From assembly GCF_000723205.1 (NCBI RefSeq), contig NZ_HG315671.1, positions 3,422,001-3,486,000 of the forward strand: a stretch of 64,000 nt of DNA, in the 5' to 3' direction. Source of the stretch: Formosa agariphila KMM 3901 (lineage in GTDB: Bacteria; Bacteroidota; Bacteroidia; Flavobacteriales; Flavobacteriaceae). Below, piece after piece: positions 3,476-18,502 of this stretch (positions are counted from its first letter, which is position 1; the number at the start of each line of letters is the position of its first letter). Position numbers and translations under genes: made by a program. The notes beneath the pieces are model-generated. The model searched no databases. It was not told the DNA's origin and saw nothing but the letters and a program-made list of their open reading frames with translations.

Positions 3476-4752
3476 ATGCTATAGCACAAATAGAGGCGTA
3501 TTATGCAGCACCTAAATGTAGTCATGTATTACCCGATCCAGTAGCAGTAAATTTAAATCCGTGGAATAAGGTAATAAACAGAATTGCAAAAGAGCTACAT
3601 ACAGGTAAACTTAAACCGTCGGATTTAGACCAGGAACTTGTACAAAAAACATACGACACTCTAAATGGTGGTGTCGCTGAAGGTTATGGTGCACGTTACC
3701 ACCAATACAGCGAGCAAAACAGTGCTACAGTACAACGTTTACAACAAAATCTTTACCAGTTTTCTGCGGCTAAAACCTACCAGCAATTAGCAGAATACAA
3801 TAGCTTTTTAACCGATGAAAACGGCAAAGAACGATCGTTTAACGATTTTAAAAAACTGGTATTAGACAAACACCCGAAGTACAATAAAAACTACCTGCAG
3901 GCAGAATACCAAACGGCAAAAGCGTCTGGACAAATGGCGGCTAAATGGCAGGGGTTTCAGCGTAACAAAACACGATATCCGTATTTAAAATATAAAACTG
4001 TTGGAGACGAACACGTACGCGACGACCATGCAGGTTTAGACGGTTTTATTGCTCATATAGATGATCCTATTTGGGATAGAATATACCCACCAAACGATTG
4101 GAGATGCCGTTGTTATGTAGTGCAAACTAACCAAGCTCCAGAAGACGATGCCGTACCAGACTTAAAGTTTATGAAACCTGCCTTTAGTGTAAATGTTGGT
4201 AAAACAGGCGTGGTGTTTAACGATCAAGCACACCCGTATTTTATAATCCCGAAAAAAGACGAAAAACGCATGCAAGTCGCTTTTGAAAGTATGAAGTTGC
4301 GTTTGGCCTATGGTAAAGCAAAATACACTTCGCCAACGGGCAGCAAAATATTTGTACACCCGTTTGCAGATCCAGTAGACTTGTACGACAATTACTCGAA
4401 TGCGGTTTTAATTTCAAATACGCTTAAACTCAATGTAAAATTAAGACCTCATATTGATGGTGCCGTGTTACTGAATACGAAAAATCCCGAGTATCTAATT
4501 AATAATAAAACTGGTGAGCGCAAAGCTCCAGAAGGACTAAACTTTAGAAACGTGTTACGTAAAGCGGTTAAACAAGGTAGCGAGGTTGTTGTTATTGATT
4601 TAGTTGATAATCCAAACCCTTATAAAAATGTGAAAGCCGTATTAACACAGCAATTAAGCAGACAAGATAGATTTCCATCAATCAAGGAAATTATTTTAAT
4701 ATCTAAAGACCGTAAAACAATAGAAAGCATTAAACGAAGTGCCGTAAAATAA
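3457..4752 (+). CDS. Phage head morphogenesis protein with CdiA-type nuclease-like tail
   Basis: The open frame encodes about 430 residues with no ordinary start codon in its first 159 codons. The middle carries the Mu-F/SPP1-gp7 signature, visible as DDHAGLDGF, IYPPNDWRCRC and flanking residues (about 4020-4115). These minor head proteins bind the portal and help prohead assembly. The last roughly 120 residues contain NPEYLINNKTGERKAPEG and a later VVVIDL strand, a layout like the C-terminal tRNase domain of some CdiA toxins. The ERK triplet could be the catalytic E-x-K. Such nuclease-fold tails are known on phage minor head proteins. Translation probably comes from frame change out of the portal gene. 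The ATG at 3934 would remove the N-terminal third. Confidence 0.75.
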   Translation, partial: KKKPKVNAIAQIEAYYAAPKCSHVLPDPVAVNLNPWNKVINRIAKELHTGKLKPSDLDQELVQKTYDTLNGGVAEGYGARYHQYSEQNSATVQRLQQNLYQFSAAKTYQQLAEYNSFLTDENGKERSFNDFKKLVLDKHPKYNKNYLQAEYQTAKASGQMAAKWQGFQRNKTRYPYLKYKTVGDEHVRDDHAGLDGFIAHIDDPIWDRIYPPNDWRCRCYVVQTNQAPEDDAVPDLKFMKPAFSVNVGKTGVVFNDQAHPYFIIPKKDEKRMQVAFESMKLRLAYGKAKYTSPTGSKIFVHPFADPVDLYDNYSNAVLISNTLKLNVKLRPHIDGAVLLNTKNPEYLINNKTGERKAPEGLNFRNVLRKAVKQGSEVVVIDLVDNPNPYKNVKAVLTQQLSRQDRFPSIKEIILISKDRKTIESIKRSAVK

Positions 4753-4753
4753 C

Positions 4754-4776
4754 AAAAGCAACCCGAAGGCTGCTTT
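4754..4776 (+). terminator. Weak hairpin after the head gene
   Basis: The sequence AAAGCAACC-CGAA-GGCTGCTTT directly after the head-protein stop can fold into a short stem with one mismatch and a GNRA-like loop. There is only a short T run, so it may act as a weak terminator or mRNA stabiliser. A second tiny hairpin (GAATG-CA-CATTC) follows. Confidence 0.3.
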
Positions 4777-4838
4777 GGTGTGAATGCACATTCTTGATGT
4801 TACTCGCGAACTTCGTCACATTACAAAGATACAAAAAA

Positions 4839-5351
4839 ATGAATACCATAAACCAAATGCCCGATTTTATGGCTATGGCCGAACAACTAAAGCTCGACCT
4901 CCAGAGTGATGCCGAAATTATGGGTACAGATTTTATTCATAACAATTTTTATAAAGAAGGATGGCACGGATCAAGTTTTGAAGCTTGGGAGCAAAAAAAA
5001 CAAAGTAACAGTTATCAATTACTTCGTGTAACAAACTATTTATTTAACTCTATCCAAGTAGCCTCTAGTACTACTGAGCGTGTAATATGGGAAGCCGATG
5101 CACCATATGCACAAATACACAATGAAGGTGGGGTTTTAAATATACCAATAACAGAACGCTCAAGAAAATTCTTTTGGTTTATGTTTAAAGCAACTGGAGA
5201 GGAAAAATGGAAATGGATGGCACTAACAAAAAATGAACGTTTTACTGTAAAAATAGATAAACGACAATTTATGGGAGACTCCGAGATCTTTACTTCAGAT
5301 TGGGAAGCCCATGCAATAAACGAAATTATAACACGATTTAAACACCTTTAA
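4839..5351 (+). CDS. Phage virion morphogenesis protein (Mu gpG-like)
   Basis: The 170-residue protein matches the pattern of the phage virion morphogenesis family (Mu gpG/P2 gpS): an N-terminal helix, a WHGSSFEAW segment, a VTNYLFNSI segment and the conserved YAQIHNEGG motif (about residues 90-98). The family is needed for tail completion or head-tail joining. The ATG at 4839 was chosen because it follows an A-rich leader; an in-frame upstream ATG at 4794 would add 15 residues unlike the family. It lies 12 nt before the next gene, in the same direction. Confidence 0.8.
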   Translation: MNTINQMPDFMAMAEQLKLDLQSDAEIMGTDFIHNNFYKEGWHGSSFEAWEQKKQSNSYQLLRVTNYLFNSIQVASSTTERVIWEADAPYAQIHNEGGVLNIPITERSRKFFWFMFKATGEEKWKWMALTKNERFTVKIDKRQFMGDSEIFTSDWEAHAINEIITRFKHL

Positions 5352-5876: not shown

Positions 5877-5880
5877 CACA

Positions 5881-5912
5881 AAAAAACCTCACTAAAATTA
5901 GTGAGGTTTTTT
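5881..5912. terminator. Bidirectional terminator between head and early genes
   Basis: A perfect 15-bp stem (5881-5895 with 5898-5912, core CCTCACTAA/TTAGTGAGG) has A and T runs on its outer sides. It can end both the rightward head transcript and the leftward early transcript, which converge here. Confidence 0.9.
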
Positions 5913-5972
5913 ACAACGTTCAAAATTGTATGGTGTTCTTAACACTTTAGAGTGCTAATATAGTCTTTTTTA

Positions 5973-6380
5973 TCAAACTTCTGAATGACTGCCTTTTGTT
6001 AGGTATTCTAATTTAGCAGAGATATAATGTGCTAATTTATAATTTTTGTCGTCTACAGCTCGTTTTAAATCGGCTTCTAAATCGGTAATTGCAATAGGTT
6101 CTAAATAAGTATTTGGTCTTAATTTTTCAAGTTCTATTTCTGTTTCATTAAGTTCTACAGTTAAAAAACTATCATCTACGTTAAACTTAAATGGTATAAG
6201 TCCTAAATAGAATTGAATATCTATCTCCTCGTTGTCGTAATCTGAAGCAAAAGCTTTTAAAGATGTCCAATGTTGCTTACCATTAAAAGTTTCGATAGTA
6301 CCTTTCTCTGTACAGAAAAAAGAAAAGGCATGTAAGCCATTATTCGTAATGTCACTACCTAAATCTATAAATTGTTTCAT
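5973..6380 (-). CDS. Hypothetical phage protein
   Basis: The 135-residue acidic protein starts with MKQFIDLGSDITNNGL. Its first half is predicted beta-rich (IDIQFYLGLIPFKFNV), and its second half contains helices such as DLEADLKRAVDDKNYKLAHYISAKLEYL. It has no signal peptide or membrane segment. It is the last gene of the leftward early operon, 2 nt after the previous stop, and ends before the shared terminator. No family is recognised. The clean coupling and codon use support a real gene. Confidence 0.65.
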   Translation of the reverse strand: MKQFIDLGSDITNNGLHAFSFFCTEKGTIETFNGKQHWTSLKAFASDYDNEEIDIQFYLGLIPFKFNVDDSFLTVELNETEIELEKLRPNTYLEPIAITDLEADLKRAVDDKNYKLAHYISAKLEYLTKGSHSEV

Positions 6381-6382
6381 AA

Positions 6383-6565
6383 TTAAACGCGTTGAAAAAT
6401 AATGTCTTCTATGGTTTTAACTTCTCGAAAAAAAGCACTTGCAAGTTTATGACGAATCCACTCGTCTGAAAACTTTTGCACACCGTATTCTTTTACATTG
6501 GTTAGGCGTTCGTGTTCCTTGCGTATGGTGTCGTAAAATTGGTTGGTTGTGTTTTTGGCGGCCAT
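6383..6565 (-). CDS. Small hypothetical phage protein
   Basis: The 60-residue protein begins MAAKNTTNQF and is mostly helical and charged, with segments such as YDTIRKEHERL and SDEWIRHKLASAFFREV. The ATG at 6565 was preferred to an in-frame TTG at 6592. The next gene starts 2 nt after its stop, which supports a shared transcript. The length and charge would fit a small DNA-binding or regulatory phage protein, but no helix-turn-helix or zinc motif is evident and no function is assigned. Confidence 0.6.
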   Translation of the reverse strand: MAAKNTTNQFYDTIRKEHERLTNVKEYGVQKFSDEWIRHKLASAFFREVKTIEDIIFQRV

Positions 6566-6612
6566 TACACAAATTAAATATAAACCCTCCAATTTACCAA
6601 AAGCAGTTTTTA

Positions 6613-7017
6613 TTAGTTGACCGCGTATTTTAAACCAGTCTCATATTTTTGTTTGGATTCCAAAAGCATATTTTTTTGAGACGGATCAAAATTTTCTATA
6701 GGCATAAACGAATTGGCTTGAGCAAACAATGCATTAGCTTTTGCTAAAATAGGATCTACTAATGTCTGATCTACTTGATACACTTGATATGCAGCTTCAA
6801 AATAATGATCGGCTAATAGATATAAAGCTGAAGCTTTAGCCTTATTACATTTGGCTTCTGGATTAGTTGTACACAGTTTTTCTATCTGTTTAAGTCCTGT
6901 TCGTAAATCTTCAGTAGAAGATTGTGGTTGTATGTATTGTTTAAAAACATCGGTTAAGCTTTGCGAGTGCAATGAAGCTGTAAACAATAAAACGGCTATT
7001 ATTAAGAGTTGTCTCAT
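6613..7017 (-). CDS. Exported helical phage protein
   Basis: The 134-residue protein begins with a clear signal peptide (MRQLLIIAVLLFTASLHSQS), with cleavage likely near residues 18-19. The mature part is predicted all-helical, with two cysteines (CTTNPEAKC) that could form a disulfide in the periplasm. Repeats of alanine-rich helices (KASALYLLADHYFEAAYQVY) are reminiscent of TPR-like packing. A phage-encoded periplasmic protein could serve lysis, superinfection exclusion or host fitness. Nothing in the sequence decides between these. It is the first gene after the opposite-strand cassette. Confidence 0.65.
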   Translation of the reverse strand: MRQLLIIAVLLFTASLHSQSLTDVFKQYIQPQSSTEDLRTGLKQIEKLCTTNPEAKCNKAKASALYLLADHYFEAAYQVYQVDQTLVDPILAKANALFAQANSFMPIENFDPSQKNMLLESKQKYETGLKYAVN

Positions 7018-7195
7018 GAGTTTAATTTTTCTAAAAATAACAAAGCCTACTATAAAATAGCAAGCTTTGTAAAAATATTGGTTGTAATAAAGGTTTTAGC
7101 CTGTAAAGTGTAAGTTTCAATTCATGTAAATGAGTTGTCCTTTTATGTAATACTCCTTTGTTTTACATTTAAATTTAATTTAAAAATATATTATT

Positions 7196-7435
7196 ATGTT
7201 AAACATTAGTTTTATTCAAACAGACACAGAAAAAGAGTTATTCAAATTTAAATTGAAAGCTGTTCCTAGACGCAAAGAGTTTATTATTTATGATGATTTA
7301 CAATACATAGTAGATTATGTATTCTATAGTCCAGGACAATTAATTAGGGTATTAATTAGTCCTACAGATACTTCATTTTTTAAAACGGAAACATCTAAGA
7401 GAATTCCTTTTTCGGATCCTATTGTGGTAGTCTAA
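7196..7435 (+). CDS. Small accessory protein, paralogue-like pair member 1
   Basis: The 79-residue protein contains AVPRRKEFIIYDDLQYIVDYVFYS followed by IRVLIS (quoted in parts: PRRKEF, DDLQYIVDYVF). This P-x(4)-E-x-I-x(2)-D-x(3)-YIV-x(2)-V-x-F pattern recurs in the next small gene. It resembles short beta-barrel-like domains in which a charged loop precedes a YxVxxV strand, but no family can be named. It lies on the + strand inside a - strand operon, so it belongs to the inserted accessory cassette. The TTATTATGTTA context at the start matches that of the next gene. Confidence 0.6.
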   Translation: MLNISFIQTDTEKELFKFKLKAVPRRKEFIIYDDLQYIVDYVFYSPGQLIRVLISPTDTSFFKTETSKRIPFSDPIVVV

Positions 7436-7481
7436 AATTAAGCATGGATTTCATGTCTTAAACAATTTCAACAGTTAGTTT

Positions 7482-7489
7482 TAGGTTTG
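7482..7489 (+). promoter_or_regulatory. Candidate Bacteroidota -7 box (TAGGTTTG)
   Basis: TAGGTTTG fits the Bacteroidota consensus TAnnTTTG and lies 24 nt before the ATG at 7513. No convincing -33 TTG was found, so this is a candidate for a promoter inside the accessory cassette. Confidence 0.4.
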
Positions 7490-7512
7490 GAACTAATTTA
7501 AACTTATTAATT

Positions 7513-7683
7513 ATGTTAGTATCTTATTACACTATTGAAAGTGGAGATTTGTTTATGTCTTGGGCTAGCAGCTTACCTAAATTGAACGAGGTTATACTGA
7601 GCAAAGACATGAAATACATTGTTAAAGATGTGAAATTTGGTTTTAATGTATATTACATTTTAGTAGAAAGAAAATACATTTAA
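7513..7683 (+). CDS. Small accessory protein, paralogue-like pair member 2
   Basis: The frame encodes 56 residues: MLVSYYTIESGDLF, then SLPKLNEVILSKDMKYIV and KDVKFGFNVYYILVER. It aligns with the preceding 79-residue protein over P-x(4)-E-x-I-x(2)-D-x(3)-YIV-x(2)-V-x-F, about nine identities in 33 positions, which suggests an old tandem duplication followed by shortening. The ATG sits in an AATTATGTTA context almost identical to that of its neighbour. A hairpin follows the stop. The function is unknown. Confidence 0.5.
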   Translation: MLVSYYTIESGDLFMSWASSLPKLNEVILSKDMKYIVKDVKFGFNVYYILVERKYI

Positions 7684-7690
7684 ACTAAAA

Positions 7691-7725
7691 ATGGTAACGA
7701 CTTTTTTGTCGTTACCATAGCTTTA
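7691..7725 (+). terminator. Hairpin terminator after small genes
   Basis: A perfect 11-bp stem (7691-7701 with 7708-7718, ATGGTAACGAC/GTCGTTACCAT) has a T6 loop. The 3' tail is A-rich rather than T-rich, so termination may be partial on the + strand. It separates the two tiny genes from the RexA/RexB-like pair. Confidence 0.55.
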
Positions 7726-7877
7726 AAAAAAAGGTATATACTTATCTACTTTAAATCGTTTTGAGGTTATCTAGCTTTTATTTGCTACTAAATAATTAAC
7801 ATTTGAAAATTAGTTTTACTAAATTGTCAACCATTTTTATCTTTCAATTTAAATTAAACTAATTTAACCTCTAATAA

Positions 7878-8735
7878 ATGGAAAACAAATTAATAAATTT
7901 TCACATCTTCAGGTACCATCTTCTACCTCTAAATAAAAAAAATCAACAAGTTGAAATGTTCGAAAATTCAGACTTATCATTTGAAGAAATTAAAGAAAGA
8001 AAAAACGAATTTTTTGGAAATATTTTAAATGAACTAATTTCTTACAAGAATAAGAATCATCCATTAAAATTAGAACATCATGAAGGCACAAAATATATCT
8101 TCAAGATAGCAAATAAAAAGACTACTAAAATCACCCAAAACTTCAAAAATCAGATAATAGCCAATGAACCTTTCTCTTATGTTATTTTTGATAACGACCC
8201 AACAGTTCAAAAGATAGCAATAAGTGATAACAACGAAGCTTTCTCTTCACCGATTGTAGTTAAAAATAATTTAGGGAAAATTTTTAGAAAAGGACTTGAA
8301 AAATATGGTTTAAACATTGAAATAGAACAACTTTTTGACAAAAAAGGGTTCTGGGAGTATGTAAATGAACATAAAAAAGAAATTACTTATATTAATTTTC
8401 AGTTCATAAAACCTAATTTAGCAAATATATCTAGAAGTCTTCCAGAAGCTTTTAAAGATTTTGCAAATAAAACTAATAGCCACGATAGCCATATAACAAT
8501 TAAGGCACCTGAAAAAGGTACTTTAGAAAATATTAGCCAAAAAAATCAAGATATTGCAGGATTAGTTGATTATACCTCCAATGGAGCTGGTAGTATTAAA
8601 TTAAAAGTAAAGGGAGTAAGAACTCAATTAAAAACTGAGGACAATCCTAAAATAATACAGATGAGAGAAATAGATGAGGTCGAAATTGAAGGTTCTCCGG
8701 AAGCAGTAACTAAATTCTATAAAACATTAATGTAA
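7878..8735 (+). CDS. RexA-like soluble protein of a two-gene accessory system
   Basis: The 285-residue lysine-rich protein has no signal or membrane segment. It is followed 1 nt later by a four-helix membrane protein. Lambda RexA has 279 residues, and its order of segments can be traced here: an N-terminal helix plus an H-x-E-G-TKYIFKI strand (about 67-77), then a PFSYVIFDND strand (about 97-106), then an IEIEQLF segment ending in the strand ITYINFQFI (about 168-176), and a helical C-terminal half. No catalytic motif is seen. RexA senses or relays phage infection to RexB in lambda. A similar role here is inference from size, topology and gene order, as direct identity is low. Confidence 0.55.
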   Translation: MENKLINFHIFRYHLLPLNKKNQQVEMFENSDLSFEEIKERKNEFFGNILNELISYKNKNHPLKLEHHEGTKYIFKIANKKTTKITQNFKNQIIANEPFSYVIFDNDPTVQKIAISDNNEAFSSPIVVKNNLGKIFRKGLEKYGLNIEIEQLFDKKGFWEYVNEHKKEITYINFQFIKPNLANISRSLPEAFKDFANKTNSHDSHITIKAPEKGTLENISQKNQDIAGLVDYTSNGAGSIKLKVKGVRTQLKTEDNPKIIQMREIDEVEIEGSPEAVTKFYKTLM

Positions 8736-8736
8736 T

Positions 8737-9186
8737 TTGAAGTTAATAAAAAACATATCTTTTTATATAATAATTGGAATTCTAATTTGCACATTAGGCA
8801 ATATGTTAGAGTCTAAATCTTTATTCAAGTATTTACAAGATAACATTATAGGATTACTTCTAACTCTTCTTGCAATAAATACTGCGACTCTTGGACTTAT
8901 AGCATCAAAAATTCAAGATATTCTTATCCCGTATCCATCACTAGATTTTTCCGATGTGATTAAAGAGATGAAAATGTCTCTCTTAGAGCAGATTATTCTA
9001 ATTATTGTAAGTATTGCCACTTTATTAGTTAAAGACAGCGCTATATTGGAATTTAAGTTAAAGGATTCTTTTTGTGAAGTAATTTTAGTTGCAGTACTAA
9101 CTTATTCGATTTATATCTTATGGGACACAGGCAAGGCTGTGTTTATTACTATTGAAGAAATTCAAAATATGAACAAAAAAAAATAG
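8737..9186 (+). CDS. RexB-like four-helix inner-membrane protein
   Basis: The 149-residue protein has four predicted membrane helices: about residues 8-25 (FYIIIGILICTLGNML), 38-59 (IIGLLLTLLAINTATLGLI), 83-98 (LLEQIILIIVSIATLL) and 113-129 (CEVILVAVLTYSIYILW). A charged loop lies between the second and third, and the C-terminus is lysine-rich. Lambda RexB has 144 residues and four helices and lets ions cross the membrane when RexA activates it. The start is a TTG 1 nt after the upstream stop, so synthesis is coupled to the partner. A terminator follows at once. Holin-like or unrelated membrane roles remain possible. Confidence 0.6.
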   Translation: MKLIKNISFYIIIGILICTLGNMLESKSLFKYLQDNIIGLLLTLLAINTATLGLIASKIQDILIPYPSLDFSDVIKEMKMSLLEQIILIIVSIATLLVKDSAILEFKLKDSFCEVILVAVLTYSIYILWDTGKAVFITIEEIQNMNKKK

Positions 9187-9212
9187 GCTAGTAAGATACC
9201 AGCCTATTTTAT
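9178..9212. terminator. Bidirectional terminator closing the accessory cassette
   Basis: A 10-bp stem (9180-9189 AAAATAGGCT with 9201-9210 AGCCTATTTT) has an 11-nt loop and A/T tails on both sides. It lies between the convergent stops of the RexB-like gene and the - strand gene at 9214. Confidence 0.85.
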
Positions 9213-9213
9213 A

Positions 9214-9450
9214 CTACAATAACAAACGGTTAATACGTGTCCTAAACGATTCAGCATCTTCTAGAGAATAATTGTCTAGCCATTCAATTGCATTACTCAT
9301 ATTACGAGCATTTGACTTTATACTCACTGAAATTCCTTTAATATTTGTTCTTGTTAGCATATCGTAGACATCATTATCTACGCTATAATCTATAGTCAAC
9401 AATACTTGTTCGTTATTTCTTAATTCAATTAGTTTTGCAAATCTTGTCAT
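9214..9450 (-). CDS. Hypothetical phage protein
   Basis: The 78-residue protein starts MTRFAKLIEL and reads as a beta-alpha-beta mix: EQVLLTIDYS, then NIKGISVSIKS, and a C-terminal helical part LEDAESFRTRINRLLL. No signal, membrane or metal motif is evident. It lies in the early operon 12 nt after the 38-residue membrane protein and is the last early gene before the opposite-strand cassette. No family is recognised. Confidence 0.6.
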   Translation of the reverse strand: MTRFAKLIELRNNEQVLLTIDYSVDNDVYDMLTRTNIKGISVSIKSNARNMSNAIEWLDNYSLEDAESFRTRINRLLL

Positions 9451-9462
9451 TTTAAAATGGGT

Positions 9463-9579
9463 TTAAATGTTTTTCAATACTATAAGTATTACTATTAATA
9501 GCAGTATTATTACTGGCAATGGGTTGGGGTCTGGATGGCGTCCTAAATATGGATCGTCTAACCATTCGCGATCATGCAT
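9463..9579 (-). CDS. Single-helix membrane micro-protein (38 aa)
   Basis: The frame encodes 38 residues: a polar N-terminus MHDREWLDDPYLGRHPDPN followed by one hydrophobic helix LPVIILLLIVILIVL and the end KNI. It overlaps the upstream gene by 8 nt and has a free gap of 12 nt to the next, as expected for a real operon gene. The layout (short acidic/proline head, one helix, almost no tail) is typical of small phage membrane regulators such as spanin-, Imm- or protease-inhibitor-like peptides, but the specific role is unknown. Confidence 0.5.
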   Translation of the reverse strand: MHDREWLDDPYLGRHPDPNPLPVIILLLIVILIVLKNI

Positions 9580-14564: not shown

Positions 14565-15422
14565 TTAGGCAGTTTTTTTAAATTGCTTTTTTTGTTTGAG
14601 TTTATATTTTTCAATGTCACGACGTACACGTCTTAAATCGTCTTCGCAGTTTTGGTATATAAAATCTATTTCGTCGGGGGCGGTTATACCATTAGCGTTA
14701 CATATTAAATCCACATCGTTATAACTAATAGGATCTAGCTTTATGAACTTTCTACCAATTCGGCTGTACAATTCTGCATAACCTATTTTGTTTCGGTTTA
14801 CACCTTTATCTATTCTAATCTCCAAAGCTTCTACACCGCTAATAACAAAACCACAATGGCCATTTAGATCGTTATAGAAATCCATAAATAAATCAAGCTG
14901 TGGGTCTTTTAACTTGTCAAACTGATCTATAATTAATAGCGGATTGTTAAGTGATTTTAAATGCTTTATAAAGCGATTAATTAGTTCTTCTGTAGTACCT
15001 AAAGAATTTAATCCTGCACTTATAAGTAATTGACGGATATAAGATTTTTTAGTCCAGTAGTTTTTGCACTCCACGTAAATAACGTTTTCATGTATGCGTT
15101 CAAAATCAGTATAAGCATGAGTTTTACCCTTTCCTGCAGTATCACTAATAGCTATACTCACACTGGTATCTTTAGCCGTTTTTACTAAATCGTAAACAAG
15201 ATTATAGTTTGATGTTTTGGCGGTAACCCAGTTAGGATCTATGCGTAAGGTGACTTGAATTTTACGCCACATAGCATCGCTAATTAATGCCCAGTTGTGG
15301 TTAATGATTTGACTAATTAAGGCCGTAGAAACGCCTGCTTGATTAGCGATTTGCTTCTGGCTTATCTTTCTTGATAAGCGTGTAAGCTCGTTGGCAATTT
15401 GTGATTTTTGTTCTTGATTCAT
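14565..15422 (-). CDS. MuB-like target-capture ATPase
   Basis: The 285-residue protein begins with a helix-turn-helix (about residues 20-42, SQKQIANQAGVSTALISQII), followed by an AAA+ ATPase: Walker A DTAGKGKT at 94-101 and Walker B LLIID at 162-166, with a later arginine-rich part EDDLRRVRRDIEKY. MuB binds target DNA as an ATP-dependent filament, recruits MuA to it and keeps the phage from inserting into itself. N-terminal HTH plus AAA+ is the expected domain order and the length fits (Mu 312). It lies 20 nt after the transposase. Confidence 0.9.
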   Translation of the reverse strand: MNQEQKSQIANELTRLSRKISQKQIANQAGVSTALISQIINHNWALISDAMWRKIQVTLRIDPNWVTAKTSNYNLVYDLVKTAKDTSVSIAISDTAGKGKTHAYTDFERIHENVIYVECKNYWTKKSYIRQLLISAGLNSLGTTEELINRFIKHLKSLNNPLLIIDQFDKLKDPQLDLFMDFYNDLNGHCGFVISGVEALEIRIDKGVNRNKIGYAELYSRIGRKFIKLDPISYNDVDLICNANGITAPDEIDFIYQNCEDDLRRVRRDIEKYKLKQKKQFKKTA

Positions 15423-15442: not shown

Positions 15443-17440
15443 CTACATTCTATCTATAAAAGATTCGGCTTCAACCTCGTTGCGCAACTGTTTTGGTAGT
15501 TTACCTCCGAATTTCATTTTTAACTCTTGATCGCTTATTAGTTTTTCTGGTGTAATACCAGTTTCGCGTTGTATTCTCTTAATTTTTGATTGGGCAGCCG
15601 CCTCTTCAATTTTACGTACTTCATAATCTTTAGCCCATTGTTCTTTATCGCCTTCTTGCATTAATACTGGTACTTGCTGTTGTTTGCGCACAGGTTGTGC
15701 ATCGGCTACAAATTGTTTATCTCCATCTGGAAGTTTTAAGTACAGACTTACATAATTGTCTAACTGGTCTGGGTCGTACTTCACAAAGAATTTTTTGTTT
15801 ACCCATTGCTCTCTAAACCTTAAATCGATATCGCCATTCACGTTGTAAACCTCGAAGTGGTATTTGGTTTTTGCTATTTCTACACGTAAACCATCAGCTC
15901 TGTAAGTAATTGGTTCTGGGGTATAGCACCAGAATAAATCTATCATATCTAGATAGTTTACAGGTTCGTGTAGTAACGGCTCTTGGTTATAAACTTGACT
16001 TCTTGTAAGACCTTCTTTTTTAAATTTTGGATGAGTAGAATTATTCCATTCATTAACACATAATTTCCATGCTTTTAAAAGTTCTTCTTTCTTAGGAAGT
16101 TTGTGTTTGTTCTCTAAAATAAAATCCATGTTGGGTTTATTCTTTTCAGTACGAACCGTAATAGATTGTTTGTCACTAAACCACCAACCGTTAATTACTT
16201 GCTGTTGTAGACGGTTAAAAATACCTTCTACAGGCGAGCTGTGTTCGTAAGCTGCATGCTTATAATGTAAACCGCCTTTTTTTGCTACCATCTTACCGTA
16301 TAATTCTTGCATGCGAGTAGAGGTATGTCCTGACTGACCATCGTAAGTGAATAAGAATGGTCTAGACTGCGATTCTTGGAAAGCCATTTTAACTGCTGTA
16401 AAGTGATCTATATGGTTTTCAGTTTCACTAAAGCTCCAGCCTATTATTTTTTCGCTATAAACATCTACTACAGGGTCTATCTTAAATTTAGCAGCTGCAC
16501 CAAGATCATTATCATAATAGTGCATCCAATCAATCTTAGAGCCATCAATCGCCCAATATGCATTAGGGAACCATTGTTCTTTATCTCTAACTAATTTGTG
16601 ACCATATTTGTTTTTGTATTCGTTTAAATCACGAGAAACCAACCATACCTTTTCCTGTTCTGGTTCATACAGCCATTTGTAGATTGCCGATTCTGAAAGA
16701 TCGCACCAGCCTCTTTTTTCGGCTTCTCGCATATAAAGCGTATGCAATACAGGTACAACAATTTTATTAGGCATAGAGTAGGTTGCAATTAACCATTTAG
16801 CATTTTCGCCTTTAATTTTTTGAGCAGCTTTGTTTCCTGCATTCTTATGTACAAGAAAGTCATAACCCTCATCTATATAGCCTTGTGCTTTTCTATCTAA
16901 GGCGCGAACGTTTGATGGTAAATTATGAGGATACTTTTTAGTTTGTGTGTTTGGGTAACATTCTGTTTTAAGATCATTAATAATACTAGACAACTTTTTC
17001 TTTAAAGCACCTTTTTTAGATTTTTTACGTTGTGCTTTTATTTTGATTTCATAATTATTAATTGTGGTGTTGTATAAGTTTAAAATTTCGGCTTCACAGA
17101 TGTATTGAGCTTGCTTCTTGTCTGAAATACCACGACCATCTTCGTAGTTGTAGGTTTTAAAAAACACAATAGCATCGTCGTCTGTAGCTAATTGATTAGT
17201 GAAGGTTTCGCGATTGTCTTTTAAGTACGGATTACCAAACGTGCGAATAATTAAGTTCTTTAAGTCTTCAGGTATGGAGTCAAATTCTATTAAACCAGTT
17301 CTACCACGACCTTTAGTTCTTACTTTGTTTAGTTTACCACGTTGTACCCATTTCTGAAAATTATCATAGCTTAAAATAGATAGGCTATCATAAAAGACTT
17401 CTTGGTCTACACAAATGATGTTTAAATAATTCTCGTACAT
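15443..17440 (-). CDS. MuA-like DDE transposase
   Basis: The 665-residue protein has the MuA layout: an N-terminal DNA-binding region, a helical linker, an RNase H-fold core and a C-terminal beta-barrel and MuB-contact region. The core shows AIDGSKID with D299, FTYDGQSGHTS with D367 and SSPVEGIFNR with E405, the expected D-D-E triad. The enzyme nicks prophage ends and joins them to target DNA during integration and replicative transposition. The length matches MuA (663). The C-terminal tail is charged, as needed for contact with MuB and ClpX. The ATG at 17440 lies 18 nt after the HTH gene. Confidence 0.95.
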   Translation of the reverse strand: MYENYLNIICVDQEVFYDSLSILSYDNFQKWVQRGKLNKVRTKGRGRTGLIEFDSIPEDLKNLIIRTFGNPYLKDNRETFTNQLATDDDAIVFFKTYNYEDGRGISDKKQAQYICEAEILNLYNTTINNYEIKIKAQRKKSKKGALKKKLSSIINDLKTECYPNTQTKKYPHNLPSNVRALDRKAQGYIDEGYDFLVHKNAGNKAAQKIKGENAKWLIATYSMPNKIVVPVLHTLYMREAEKRGWCDLSESAIYKWLYEPEQEKVWLVSRDLNEYKNKYGHKLVRDKEQWFPNAYWAIDGSKIDWMHYYDNDLGAAAKFKIDPVVDVYSEKIIGWSFSETENHIDHFTAVKMAFQESQSRPFLFTYDGQSGHTSTRMQELYGKMVAKKGGLHYKHAAYEHSSPVEGIFNRLQQQVINGWWFSDKQSITVRTEKNKPNMDFILENKHKLPKKEELLKAWKLCVNEWNNSTHPKFKKEGLTRSQVYNQEPLLHEPVNYLDMIDLFWCYTPEPITYRADGLRVEIAKTKYHFEVYNVNGDIDLRFREQWVNKKFFVKYDPDQLDNYVSLYLKLPDGDKQFVADAQPVRKQQQVPVLMQEGDKEQWAKDYEVRKIEEAAAQSKIKRIQRETGITPEKLISDQELKMKFGGKLPKQLRNEVEAESFIDRM

Positions 17441-17458: not shown

Positions 17459-17659
17459 TTAATCTATCTGATTGTATTTTTCAATTATTTCTCTAGCGGC
17501 TTGATGAATATTTTGAGCCTTTTCGTTTGTTGGCTCATTTTCTAATTTCAAAATCCTTGATACATAAGTTGATGTGCAATCAAATTTTTTAGCTAATGCA
17601 GATGCGTTCACCATTTTTATTTCTTCAGGGTTTAGTGCAATAAATTTTTTTGAGTACAT
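17459..17659 (-). CDS. Ner/Cro-like HTH regulator
   Basis: The 66-residue protein contains a helix-turn-helix at about residues 20-42 (ASALAKKFDCTSTYVSRIL), ended by a helix QNIHQAAREIIEKY. It is the first gene of the early operon, opposite the repressor, the position of ner in Mu. Such proteins shut down the repressor and early promoters after induction. The ATG at 17659 was chosen; an in-frame TTG at 17707 would run across the intergenic operator. A 16-bp palindrome lies 2 nt upstream of the start, so the gene is probably under direct operator control. Confidence 0.75.
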   Translation of the reverse strand: MYSKKFIALNPEEIKMVNASALAKKFDCTSTYVSRILKLENEPTNEKAQNIHQAAREIIEKYNQID

Positions 17660-17661
17660 TA

Positions 17662-17677
17662 GTTCAAATATTTGAAC
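17662..17677. promoter_or_regulatory. Operator palindrome in the repressor/early switch
   Basis: GTTCAAATATTTGAAC is a perfect 16-bp palindrome in the 54-bp gap between the divergent early operon and the repressor gene. A dimeric HTH protein (repressor or Ner-like protein) is the likely ligand. Confidence 0.65.
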
Positions 17678-17691
17678 AAATATTACAAACA

Positions 17692-17721
17692 ATTTTGAGA
17701 AAACCAAACTATTTTGAGAAA
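17692..17721 (+). repeat. Direct repeat ATTTTGAGAAA in the switch region
   Basis: ATTTTGAGAAA occurs at 17692-17702 and 17711-17721, 19 bp apart, and a degenerate third copy (TTTTTGAGAGA) lies near 17731. The spacing of about two helical turns suits a row of regulator sites. The second copy overlaps the proposed TTG start of the repressor. Confidence 0.5.
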
Positions 17722-18502
17722 TAACACAACTTTTTTTGAGAGAATGATGCAGTTAGCCAGTACTAAAGGCATCAAGAACGCCCAGAAGTTAAGCGAATAC
17801 TTAGAGTATAAGTCCCCCGAAAAGCTTTATAGGCTTGAAAGAAACTCAGATGCAAAGCCTTCGTTTGCTATTTTACAAGATCTCTCAAAAAAGTTTGAGA
17901 ATGCAGATCTTAATTATTTAATTACTGGAGAAATAAGCCATGTTCCGATAGTGTCAAAAAAAATGGAAGTAAATGAAGACAATCAACTTCCTAAACTGGT
18001 AACTGTAGACACGCAGGGAAATGAAAATATAGTAATGGTTCCTGTGTCTGCTCAAGCAGGTTATATTAATGGGTATGGTGATCAGGATTTTATTAGCACA
18101 CTACCAACTTACAGGTTACCTAAGTTAAATAACGGTACATTTAGAATGTTTGAGGTAAAAGGTCATTCAATGTTTCCAACCTTACACTCAGGCTGTATTG
18201 TTGTTGGGGAGTGGGAAGAGGACTGGAGTAATATAAAAGATAATCAAATCTATATACTGGTAACAGATGAAGGAGTTGTTGTTAAACGTGTATTAAATCG
18301 TATTGAAAAATATGGTAATCTCTACTTAAAGAGTGATAACAGACTAGAGTACCCTTCTTACCCTATTAAAACAGAGGAAATAAAAGAAGTTTGGAAAGTA
18401 AGCTTAGCTATGGTATTTAATCTTTTAGACCCAGCAACTTTGGTTGATCGTGTTAATGATCTTGAAGCCGAATTAGCCATGATAAAAGAAAGATTATCCT
18501 AA
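17714..18502 (+). CDS. LexA/CI-type prophage repressor (S24 peptidase fold)
   Basis: The 262-residue protein has an N-terminal HTH part (about residues 8-72), a linker and a C-terminal S24 domain. A self-cleavage site A115-G116 (SAQAGYING), the serine S152 in GHSMFPTLHSG and the lysine K191 in GVVVKRV form the expected Ser/Lys dyad. DNA damage through RecA should trigger self-cleavage and prophage induction. A short C-terminal coiled coil (LVDRVNDLEAELAMIKERLS) could aid dimerisation. The TTG at 17714 keeps the FFERMMQLAS part. An ATG at 17744 is the alternative start. Confidence 0.88.
   Translation: MRNNTTFFERMMQLASTKGIKNAQKLSEYLEYKSPEKLYRLERNSDAKPSFAILQDLSKKFENADLNYLITGEISHVPIVSKKMEVNEDNQLPKLVTVDTQGNENIVMVPVSAQAGYINGYGDQDFISTLPTYRLPKLNNGTFRMFEVKGHSMFPTLHSGCIVVGEWEEDWSNIKDNQIYILVTDEGVVVKRVLNRIEKYGNLYLKSDNRLEYPSYPIKTEEIKEVWKVSLAMVFNLLDPATLVDRVNDLEAELAMIKERLS

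Follow-up and report, generated by a model that had tools for sequence, protein, structure and literature searches.

By January 2026 only five RexAB-like systems had been described, and in four of them, that of phage lambda and three resembling it, the B protein is the effector (PMC12894663, by its authors' count); the trigger of the lambda Rex system is, by the same account, still unknown. In RexABpp (PP_5643-5644), carried by prophage P1 of Pseudomonas putida, both genes are required; RexApp binds DNA, RexBpp is a membrane effector that harms the membrane, and HHpred ties RexApp only, and not RexBpp, to lambda (PMC12894663). Lambda RexA itself is reported to have a globular domain of seven strands that is split into residues 1-139 and 248-279; between these two parts lies the dimerisation domain (143-234), with four strands and four helices. 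RexA has been proposed to open and close (PMC11077077). RdgC, IML3, and CHL4 are named there as its structural relatives, and a double change of R219 and K221 abolishes its DNA binding (PMC11077077).

Here we describe a soluble protein gene (A) and a membrane protein gene (B) that form a cassette in Formosa agariphila KMM 3901. The window, i.e., the whole stretch of DNA that was analysed, is 64,000 nt long, and the features discussed are collected in Table 1. Taken together, the fold of A, the order and coupling of the two genes, their behaviour as cargo, and the neighbours of their relatives point to a RexAB-type abortive-infection pair, and we infer that A-B is probably a two-gene cassette of this type, carried as cargo by a Mu-like prophage. 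An earlier note on this DNA, made from the sequence alone, had described a soluble ORF of 285 residues and a four-helix ORF of 149 residues lying 1 nt apart; ORF calls (stop of A to start of B, 1 nt), hydrophobicity, and modelling bear out this description, and the note also gave the correct lengths for RexA (279 aa) and RexB (144 aa) of lambda.

Table 1. Features of the A-B cassette and of the prophage that carries it (window positions).
Feature	Position	Strand	Basis
Second terminator-like hairpin, upstream of cassette	7691-7718	-	called for leftward transcription
Interval holding other genes in sister prophage G245; cargo site	7684-9571	.	comparison with G245
Presumed leader/promoter region	7719-7877	+	promoter inferred
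ORF A, RexA-like (predicted) soluble protein, 285 aa	7878-8735	+	ATG start; AlphaFold2 model, pLDDT 82.6
ORF B, RexB-like four-helix (predicted) membrane protein, 149 aa	8737-9186	+	TTG start
Terminator hairpin, junction of cassette and convergent early operon	9180-9210	.	terminator scan and RNA fold
MuB-like transposition gene	14565-15422	-	PHROGs, DNA transposition protein, E 2.3e-45
MuA-like transposase gene	15443-17440	-	PHROGs, E 4.5e-52
S24/CI-type prophage repressor	17714-18502	+	PHROGs, repressor, E 1.9e-18

The placement of the pair in a Mu-like prophage, which the earlier note had claimed, was confirmed by PHROGs matches that include the MuA-like, MuB-like, and repressor genes; others were to terminase (E 7.1e-66), portal (1.8e-32), minor head protein (2.8e-25), and neck protein (9.4e-7). 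The early operon runs leftward on the - strand from 17707 (first ORF 17459-17707) down to 9214, and the pair is indeed antisense to it, as had been stated. The convergent junction between ORF B and the 9214 ORF measures 27 nt and is covered by a hairpin of 13 pairs (-12.9 kcal/mol, z -5.45 on the + strand RNA), a fold that was matched by 0 of 200 shuffles. A bidirectional terminator had been proposed here; the strong hairpin was found, and its bidirectionality is likely although uncertain, since the U-run lies within the stem on the + strand and the terminator scan called the element on the - strand only. Upstream of A, the interval 7684-7877 holds no exact TAnnTTTG promoter element, and its seven one-mismatch matches are unsurprising in AT-rich DNA.

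The nearest named phage that we found was Winogradskyella phage Peternella_1 (Winoviridae), with 75.3% DNA identity over 250-2080 and protein-level matches, collinear in mirrored order, for 16 of the 27 window genes tested. A, B, and nine other window genes among these 27 had no match in Peternella_1, whose annotated holin is located elsewhere. The identical A protein is present in a 38,037-base viral contig of IMG/VR. In G245, a prophage from another species of the same genus, the genes flanking the site are kept (w7513 on the left, 75%; w9572 on the right, 76%), and five small leftward ORFs replace A, B, and the 9214 ORF. The A-B pair was absent from all six relatives read at this site (G245, G322, G123, G364, G389, and Peternella_1). 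Since other genes occupy the same site in this sister prophage and none of these relatives has the pair, A-B is exchangeable cargo, lying antisense in the distal early region. The cassette is located ~9 kb from the prophage repressor and does not have the position directly behind the repressor that is seen in lambda.

Several side observations concern the same prophage. The match of the last early gene of Peternella_1 is at 6383-6592, to the left of the cassette, and the cassette separates it from the early operon; the distal early region as a whole (5877-9571) is variable between prophages of the Winoviridae-like group. Near the left end of the prophage, at 3869-4873 of locus L089 (G000:C1:3403869-3404873), an ORF resembles a DNA methyltransferase by eye, and Peternella_1 has an annotated adenine-specific methyltransferase at the corresponding place.

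The earlier note had proposed RexA in advance of any fold search. We modelled A with AlphaFold2 on an alignment of 38 sequences (mean pLDDT 82.6, pTM 0.82). As far as residue 141 the model consists of seven strands and two helices; residues 145-244 form four strands and four helices, and one strand and two helices follow. Its middle domain equals that of RexA in strand and helix counts, whereas its outer domain has one strand more. When the model was searched with Foldseek against 350,542 PDB chains, lambda RexA took rank 1 (8twq_B, E 2.0e-4, the sole match below E 1e-3) and rank 2 (8twq_A, E 2.3e-3); rank 3 was chain N of the human CCAN complex (E 3.1e-3), which we take to be CENP-N, and the first clearly unrelated chain was an Argonaute (E 2.6e-2). 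A fold unrelated to RexA, the outcome that would have spoken against the proposal, was thus not what the search returned. The Foldseek TM-scores against RexA were low (0.20). On re-alignment, RexA reached Z 6.4 over 127 residues at 4.0 A, a value not above that of an unrelated Roco chain (6.9), and the top rows also held RdgC (Z 6.5), Iml3 (Z 6.6), and yeast CCAN chains. Different domain angles may be the cause of the low global score. Judged from the predicted model, A is a protein of the RexA/RdgC two-domain fold class, an assignment to be read with the TM-score of 0.20 and with Z-scores no higher than those of unrelated rows. Among viral structures, five uncharacterised proteins matched the model at E <= 5.1e-6.

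The A proteins differ from RexA in detail. Their median pI is 6.5, that of window A 8.9, and that of RexA 8.6. With the register set by eye, the counterparts of RexA R219 and K221 are K or R in 9 of 38 and 0 of 38 A proteins, respectively, and these DNA-contacting residues are therefore apparently not conserved in the family.

No relationship to lambda was found at the level of sequence. At E 0.1, 0 of 38 A members matched Pfam RexA (PF15969) and 0 of 37 B members matched Pfam RexB (PF15968), while lambda RexA and RexB as controls scored 326.8 and 305.4 bits. The profile-profile comparison that had been suggested as a check was performed with hhalign against lambda families of 4 and 7-8 members, with 160 column shuffles as control; the probabilities were 0.1-0.2%, and the scores were equalled by 74 (A), 67 (C-terminal part of A), and 30 (B) of the 160 shuffles, i.e., they did not stand above chance. 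A PDB sequence search with the A family profile gave 0 matches, window A hit TRAPPC3 only (E 0.18 or worse), and the B family profile hit only histone-fold chains (E 1). We therefore rejected sequence homology to lambda RexA/RexB, which was undetectable by Pfam, PDB sequence searches, and hhalign with its shuffle control. The hhalign consensus lines show short likenesses at similar places in the A family and in RexA, EPL[MF] ahead of the hinge and YxSxxG close to the swivel loop, which were dropped as a link to RexA because hhalign was not beyond chance. In an unfiltered search of 12 proteins the B profile scored 6.5 bits with RexB and 7.3 bits with Toast gp41, and for membrane proteins such scores carry too little weight. 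The Pfam matches of the window proteins and of the A members did not include DUF4747, which has been cited as a weak link in the case of Sbash and CarolAnn.

B has four hydrophobic stretches, and its model (pLDDT 92.1) has helices at 2-23, 28-63, 72-100, and 109-148. Across the family A46 is present in 37 of 37 members, T51, E84, and D130 in 36, and N36, N48, and Q85 in 35; such conservation of polar residues within the helices would be expected if B formed a pore or an oligomer. A confident match of B to a holin or transporter family had been named as evidence against the proposal, and only scattered weak ones appeared. Window B had no holin match in Pfam or PHROGs, and the B family had none in Pfam or NCBIfam, while holin-labelled viral models came up in the fold search only at E >= 0.8; permease-type families were hit weakly in single members (E 0.002-0.05), and SieB (PF14163) weakly in 2 of 37 members (best E 0.0092). 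A fold search with the B model gave nothing below E 0.4 in the viral library, and re-alignment to the PDB gave only helical-bundle rows. One phage contributed to both viral fold lists: A0A8S5S8L2 of Siphoviridae sp. ctylc9 is in the list for A, and A0A8S5S8H0 of the same phage is in that for B at a non-significant E of 1.6. These two could possibly be another pair.

With window A as query, relatives were found in 4 of 396 other genomes of the family sample; when the genome of the window is counted too, the figure is 5 of 397. The phylum sample held relatives in 3 of 395 genomes, the window's own included and one divergent, and the genus of a Pseudomonas host in 4 of 398, two already known and one very divergent; these frequencies are low. 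An alignment search of the species-genome collection returned at least 33 loci, a lower bound since that search was a pattern scan, and viral contigs returned 8, one being the window's own. Searches of 50,697 phage records and 72,556 plasmid records gave no match for window A or for a Pseudomonas A. By record title, relatives come from Flavobacterium, Mangrovimonas, Nonlabens, Pseudomonas, Shewanella, Colwellia, and Vibrio; those from Nitrospirota, Verrucomicrobia, and Desulfovibrionaceae are single metagenome bins, in which misbinning is possible. The family, unmatched by current Pfam, NCBIfam, and PADLOC models, spans several bacterial groups and is apparently undescribed; among the matches listed in the openly licensed literature, we recognised no description of it and no experiment on it.

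To obtain the A alignment from 41 loci, we dropped L031, whose contig ends in the gene, and the apparent repeats L041 (= window), L043 (= L018), and L046 (= L034); L002-L005, L065, L091, and the divergent L066 and L092 also stand outside it. The resulting 38 sequences, window included, have pairwise identities of 23-98% (median 33%). B directly follows A in 37 of the 38 loci, with a spacing of -23 to +8 nt and a 4-nt overlap in 22 of the 37, and across these 37 loci the identity of A between any two loci is correlated with that of B (Mantel r 0.87, 0/2000 permutations). The conserved order and this correlation indicate that the pairing is more than chance. Outside the alignment, B follows A in L002, L003, L004, L065, and L091, and not in L005. 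The one exception within it is L033 (872-3391), where a transposase gene stands in place of B. L005 (154-2385), apparently the same place as L033, likewise has a transposase gene where B is expected, and in both the A protein ends in residues unlike those of its relatives. It seems, then, that when the system decays, both members are affected together.

More divergent copies were also found. At the Pseudomonas locus L092, A has 309 aa and the B that comes next has 164 aa and four hydrophobic segments; this A matches gene 5 of Vibrio phage 10N.261.45.F7_PE002B (E 9e-5, 26% over 54% of the query). This phage (PQ189321) is a 13.3-kb tailless element of the Tectiliviricetes; its gene 5 scores 70.8 bits with the A family profile, and its gene 6, which overlaps gene 5 by 14 nt, encodes 161 aa with four hydrophobic segments. 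As predicted from sequence, genes 5 and 6 (L096, 2178-3543) are a RexAB-like pair outside the tailed phages. Accessory loci with many defence genes have been reported from tailless Vibrio prophages (PMC11630473). At L066 (420-2214, G772), no membrane gene adjoins the A relative, a divergent protein of 336 aa that scores 50.5 bits.

We also surveyed the surroundings of the relatives. A repressor profile search found a CI-type repressor upstream on the same strand, at 48-1026 nt, in 7 of 40 distinct loci (8 of 42 rows), and none at the other 33; in four loci the repressor lies within 62 nt, giving the cI-rexA-rexB order of lambda. The seeds of this profile were the repressor of the window and four upstream proteins chosen by eye (from L094, L017, L047, and L044), and these four match it by construction; the Pfam check is independent, and S24 or CI-repressor domains were confirmed in all six loci scanned of the seven. 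The count of 7 of 40 is a lower bound, the upstream flanks being short at some loci (410 bases at L025, 402 at L027), and a 124-aa helix-turn-helix-like ORF upstream of L034 fell below threshold and was left uncounted. Type I restriction genes occur at 4 of 40 loci (L031, L037, L012, and L016). At L031 (2698-6813) and L037 (3129-7267), A follows hsdS, the type I specificity gene, on the same strand after ~60 and ~80 nt, and at L016 (2613-5150, Nonlabens ulvanivorans) an 846-aa SIR2/nSTAND protein is encoded 0.85 kb from A on the opposite strand. Of 141 neighbour proteins, up to 5 matched type I methyltransferases and 4 matched specificity subunits among the first 25 of 181 PADLOC families, and 6 matched CI-like repressors and 4 matched integrases among the first 25 of 113 PHROGs families. 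These tallies cover 141 of 160 eligible ORFs and are without those of L023, L025, L032, L033, L036, L039, and the window, as well as one long ORF of L014.

Considering all of this, we class A-B as a new family of the RexAB kind that stands outside the lambda RexA and RexB sequence families. The suggestion of the earlier note that the pair is a distant functional relative of RexAB guarding the lysogen fits the fold and the layout, but no sequence relationship to RexA or RexB accompanies them. We propose that A, predicted to be a two-domain protein with the RexA/RdgC fold, is probably dimeric and would close like a clamp on nucleic acid, or on a nucleoprotein complex, from an incoming phage. On meeting this trigger A would activate B, B might then oligomerise and open a channel or otherwise damage the membrane, and the infected cell would stop growing before phage is made. 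This membrane-effector mechanism is modelled on lambda RexAB and on RexABpp of P. putida, and it is by such analogy that we infer expression in the lysogen, DNA binding, contact between A and B, membrane damage, and phage exclusion. Weighing against a RexAB reading are the missing sequence link, the TM-score of 0.20 and the re-alignment Z below that of the Roco chain, the apparently unconserved DNA-contacting residues and the low median pI of the A proteins, the lack of a significant fold match for B, the distance of the window copy from the repressor, the 33 of 40 loci at which no repressor was found, and the divergent A of L066 without a membrane gene.

The last of these would suit an arrangement like that of Butters, in which the roles are reversed, A being an effector that is toxic when free and B sequestering it until infection releases it. 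Butters gp30/gp31 have the same order and topology, gp30 defending and gp31 holding it (PMC12894663 and PMC7542560). However, polar residues are conserved within the helices of B, in 35-37 of 37 members, which hints at more than an anchoring role, and B is the effector in four of the five described systems (PMC12894663), so we regard such a reversal as unlikely. If the membrane protein instead sensed injection and positioned a DNA-binding partner that silences incoming DNA, the logic would be that of Kiwa, which also joins a membrane protein to a soluble DNA-binding partner (KwaA forming tetramers and KwaB dimers; PMC12904381). That reading has little probability in our judgement: RexA heads the fold list for the A model, and 0 of 78 members match a model at E 0.01 in PADLOC-DB, which includes Kiwa models. 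In Kiwa, kwaA comes first, unlike in A-B, where the membrane gene is second.

The pair might also have no defence role; it could be a phage regulator that adjusts the choice between lysis and lysogeny, or some other pair of fitness genes. RexA is reported to act on the lambda switch without RexB, biasing it to the lytic state (PMC11077077), and the CI-type repressors upstream at 7 of 40 loci would be in keeping with regulation. But A-B is also found beside type I restriction genes, and its absence from the G245 sister prophage and from Peternella_1 indicates that such phages do not need it; we accordingly give a regulatory or fitness role scant credence. The reading as a RexAB-type abortive-infection pair can be taken further. 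Since the family spans Bacteroidota, Pseudomonadota, and single bins elsewhere, it is conceivable, though we hold the idea only tentatively and with some doubt, that RexAB is an old realm-crossing immune module of which lambda RexAB is one derived branch. This view rests on the sites beside CI repressors and within restriction operons, together with the divergent copy in a tailless element of the Varidnaviria; if it were true, RexAB would be more than an oddity confined to lambda and a handful of prophages. The family is compact, with a strict A-B operon and natural variants, and so offers many independent systems for mapping the trigger, the A-B contact, and the effect on the membrane, and a family profile would allow defence finders to annotate such pairs.

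RdgC is a host recombination protein, and to our knowledge it has no membrane partner. Its DNA-ring fold is related to that of RexA (PMC11077077), and it is among the top rows for the A model. Kiwa (KwaA/KwaB) likewise combines a membrane protein and a soluble DNA-binding protein, with the other gene order; its chains were absent among the 50 listed rows of the PDB search and re-alignment of the A model, which proves nothing. Sbash gp30/gp31, CarolAnn gp44/gp43, and Butters gp30/gp31 are two-gene prophage defences made up of a soluble and a four-helix protein, as here, but their A proteins are longer (370-403 aa vs 285 aa). Sbash and CarolAnn were compared by published description, and the proteins of Butters and Toast had no convincing similarity to the A-B family, the 7.3 bits of Toast gp41 with the B profile being the best. 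The lambda pair (8TWQ; PF15969, PF15968) is like A-B in the fold class of A, in lengths (279/144), in gene order, and in the four hydrophobic segments of RexB, and some relatives share its repressor-A-B order, whereas the window copy lies far from the repressor. It differs in having no detectable sequence similarity to the family, in the DNA-contacting residues of RexA, which are apparently not conserved, and in the spacing of its genes (15 nt in lambda vs an overlap or a few bases). RexABpp is larger (RexApp-His 37.5 kDa and RexBpp at least 181 residues, from mutant Y181H, vs 285 and 149 aa). Nevertheless, as prophage cargo that pairs a soluble protein of the RexA fold with a four-helix membrane protein, like A-B, it is, to judge from its published description, the closest experimental precedent.
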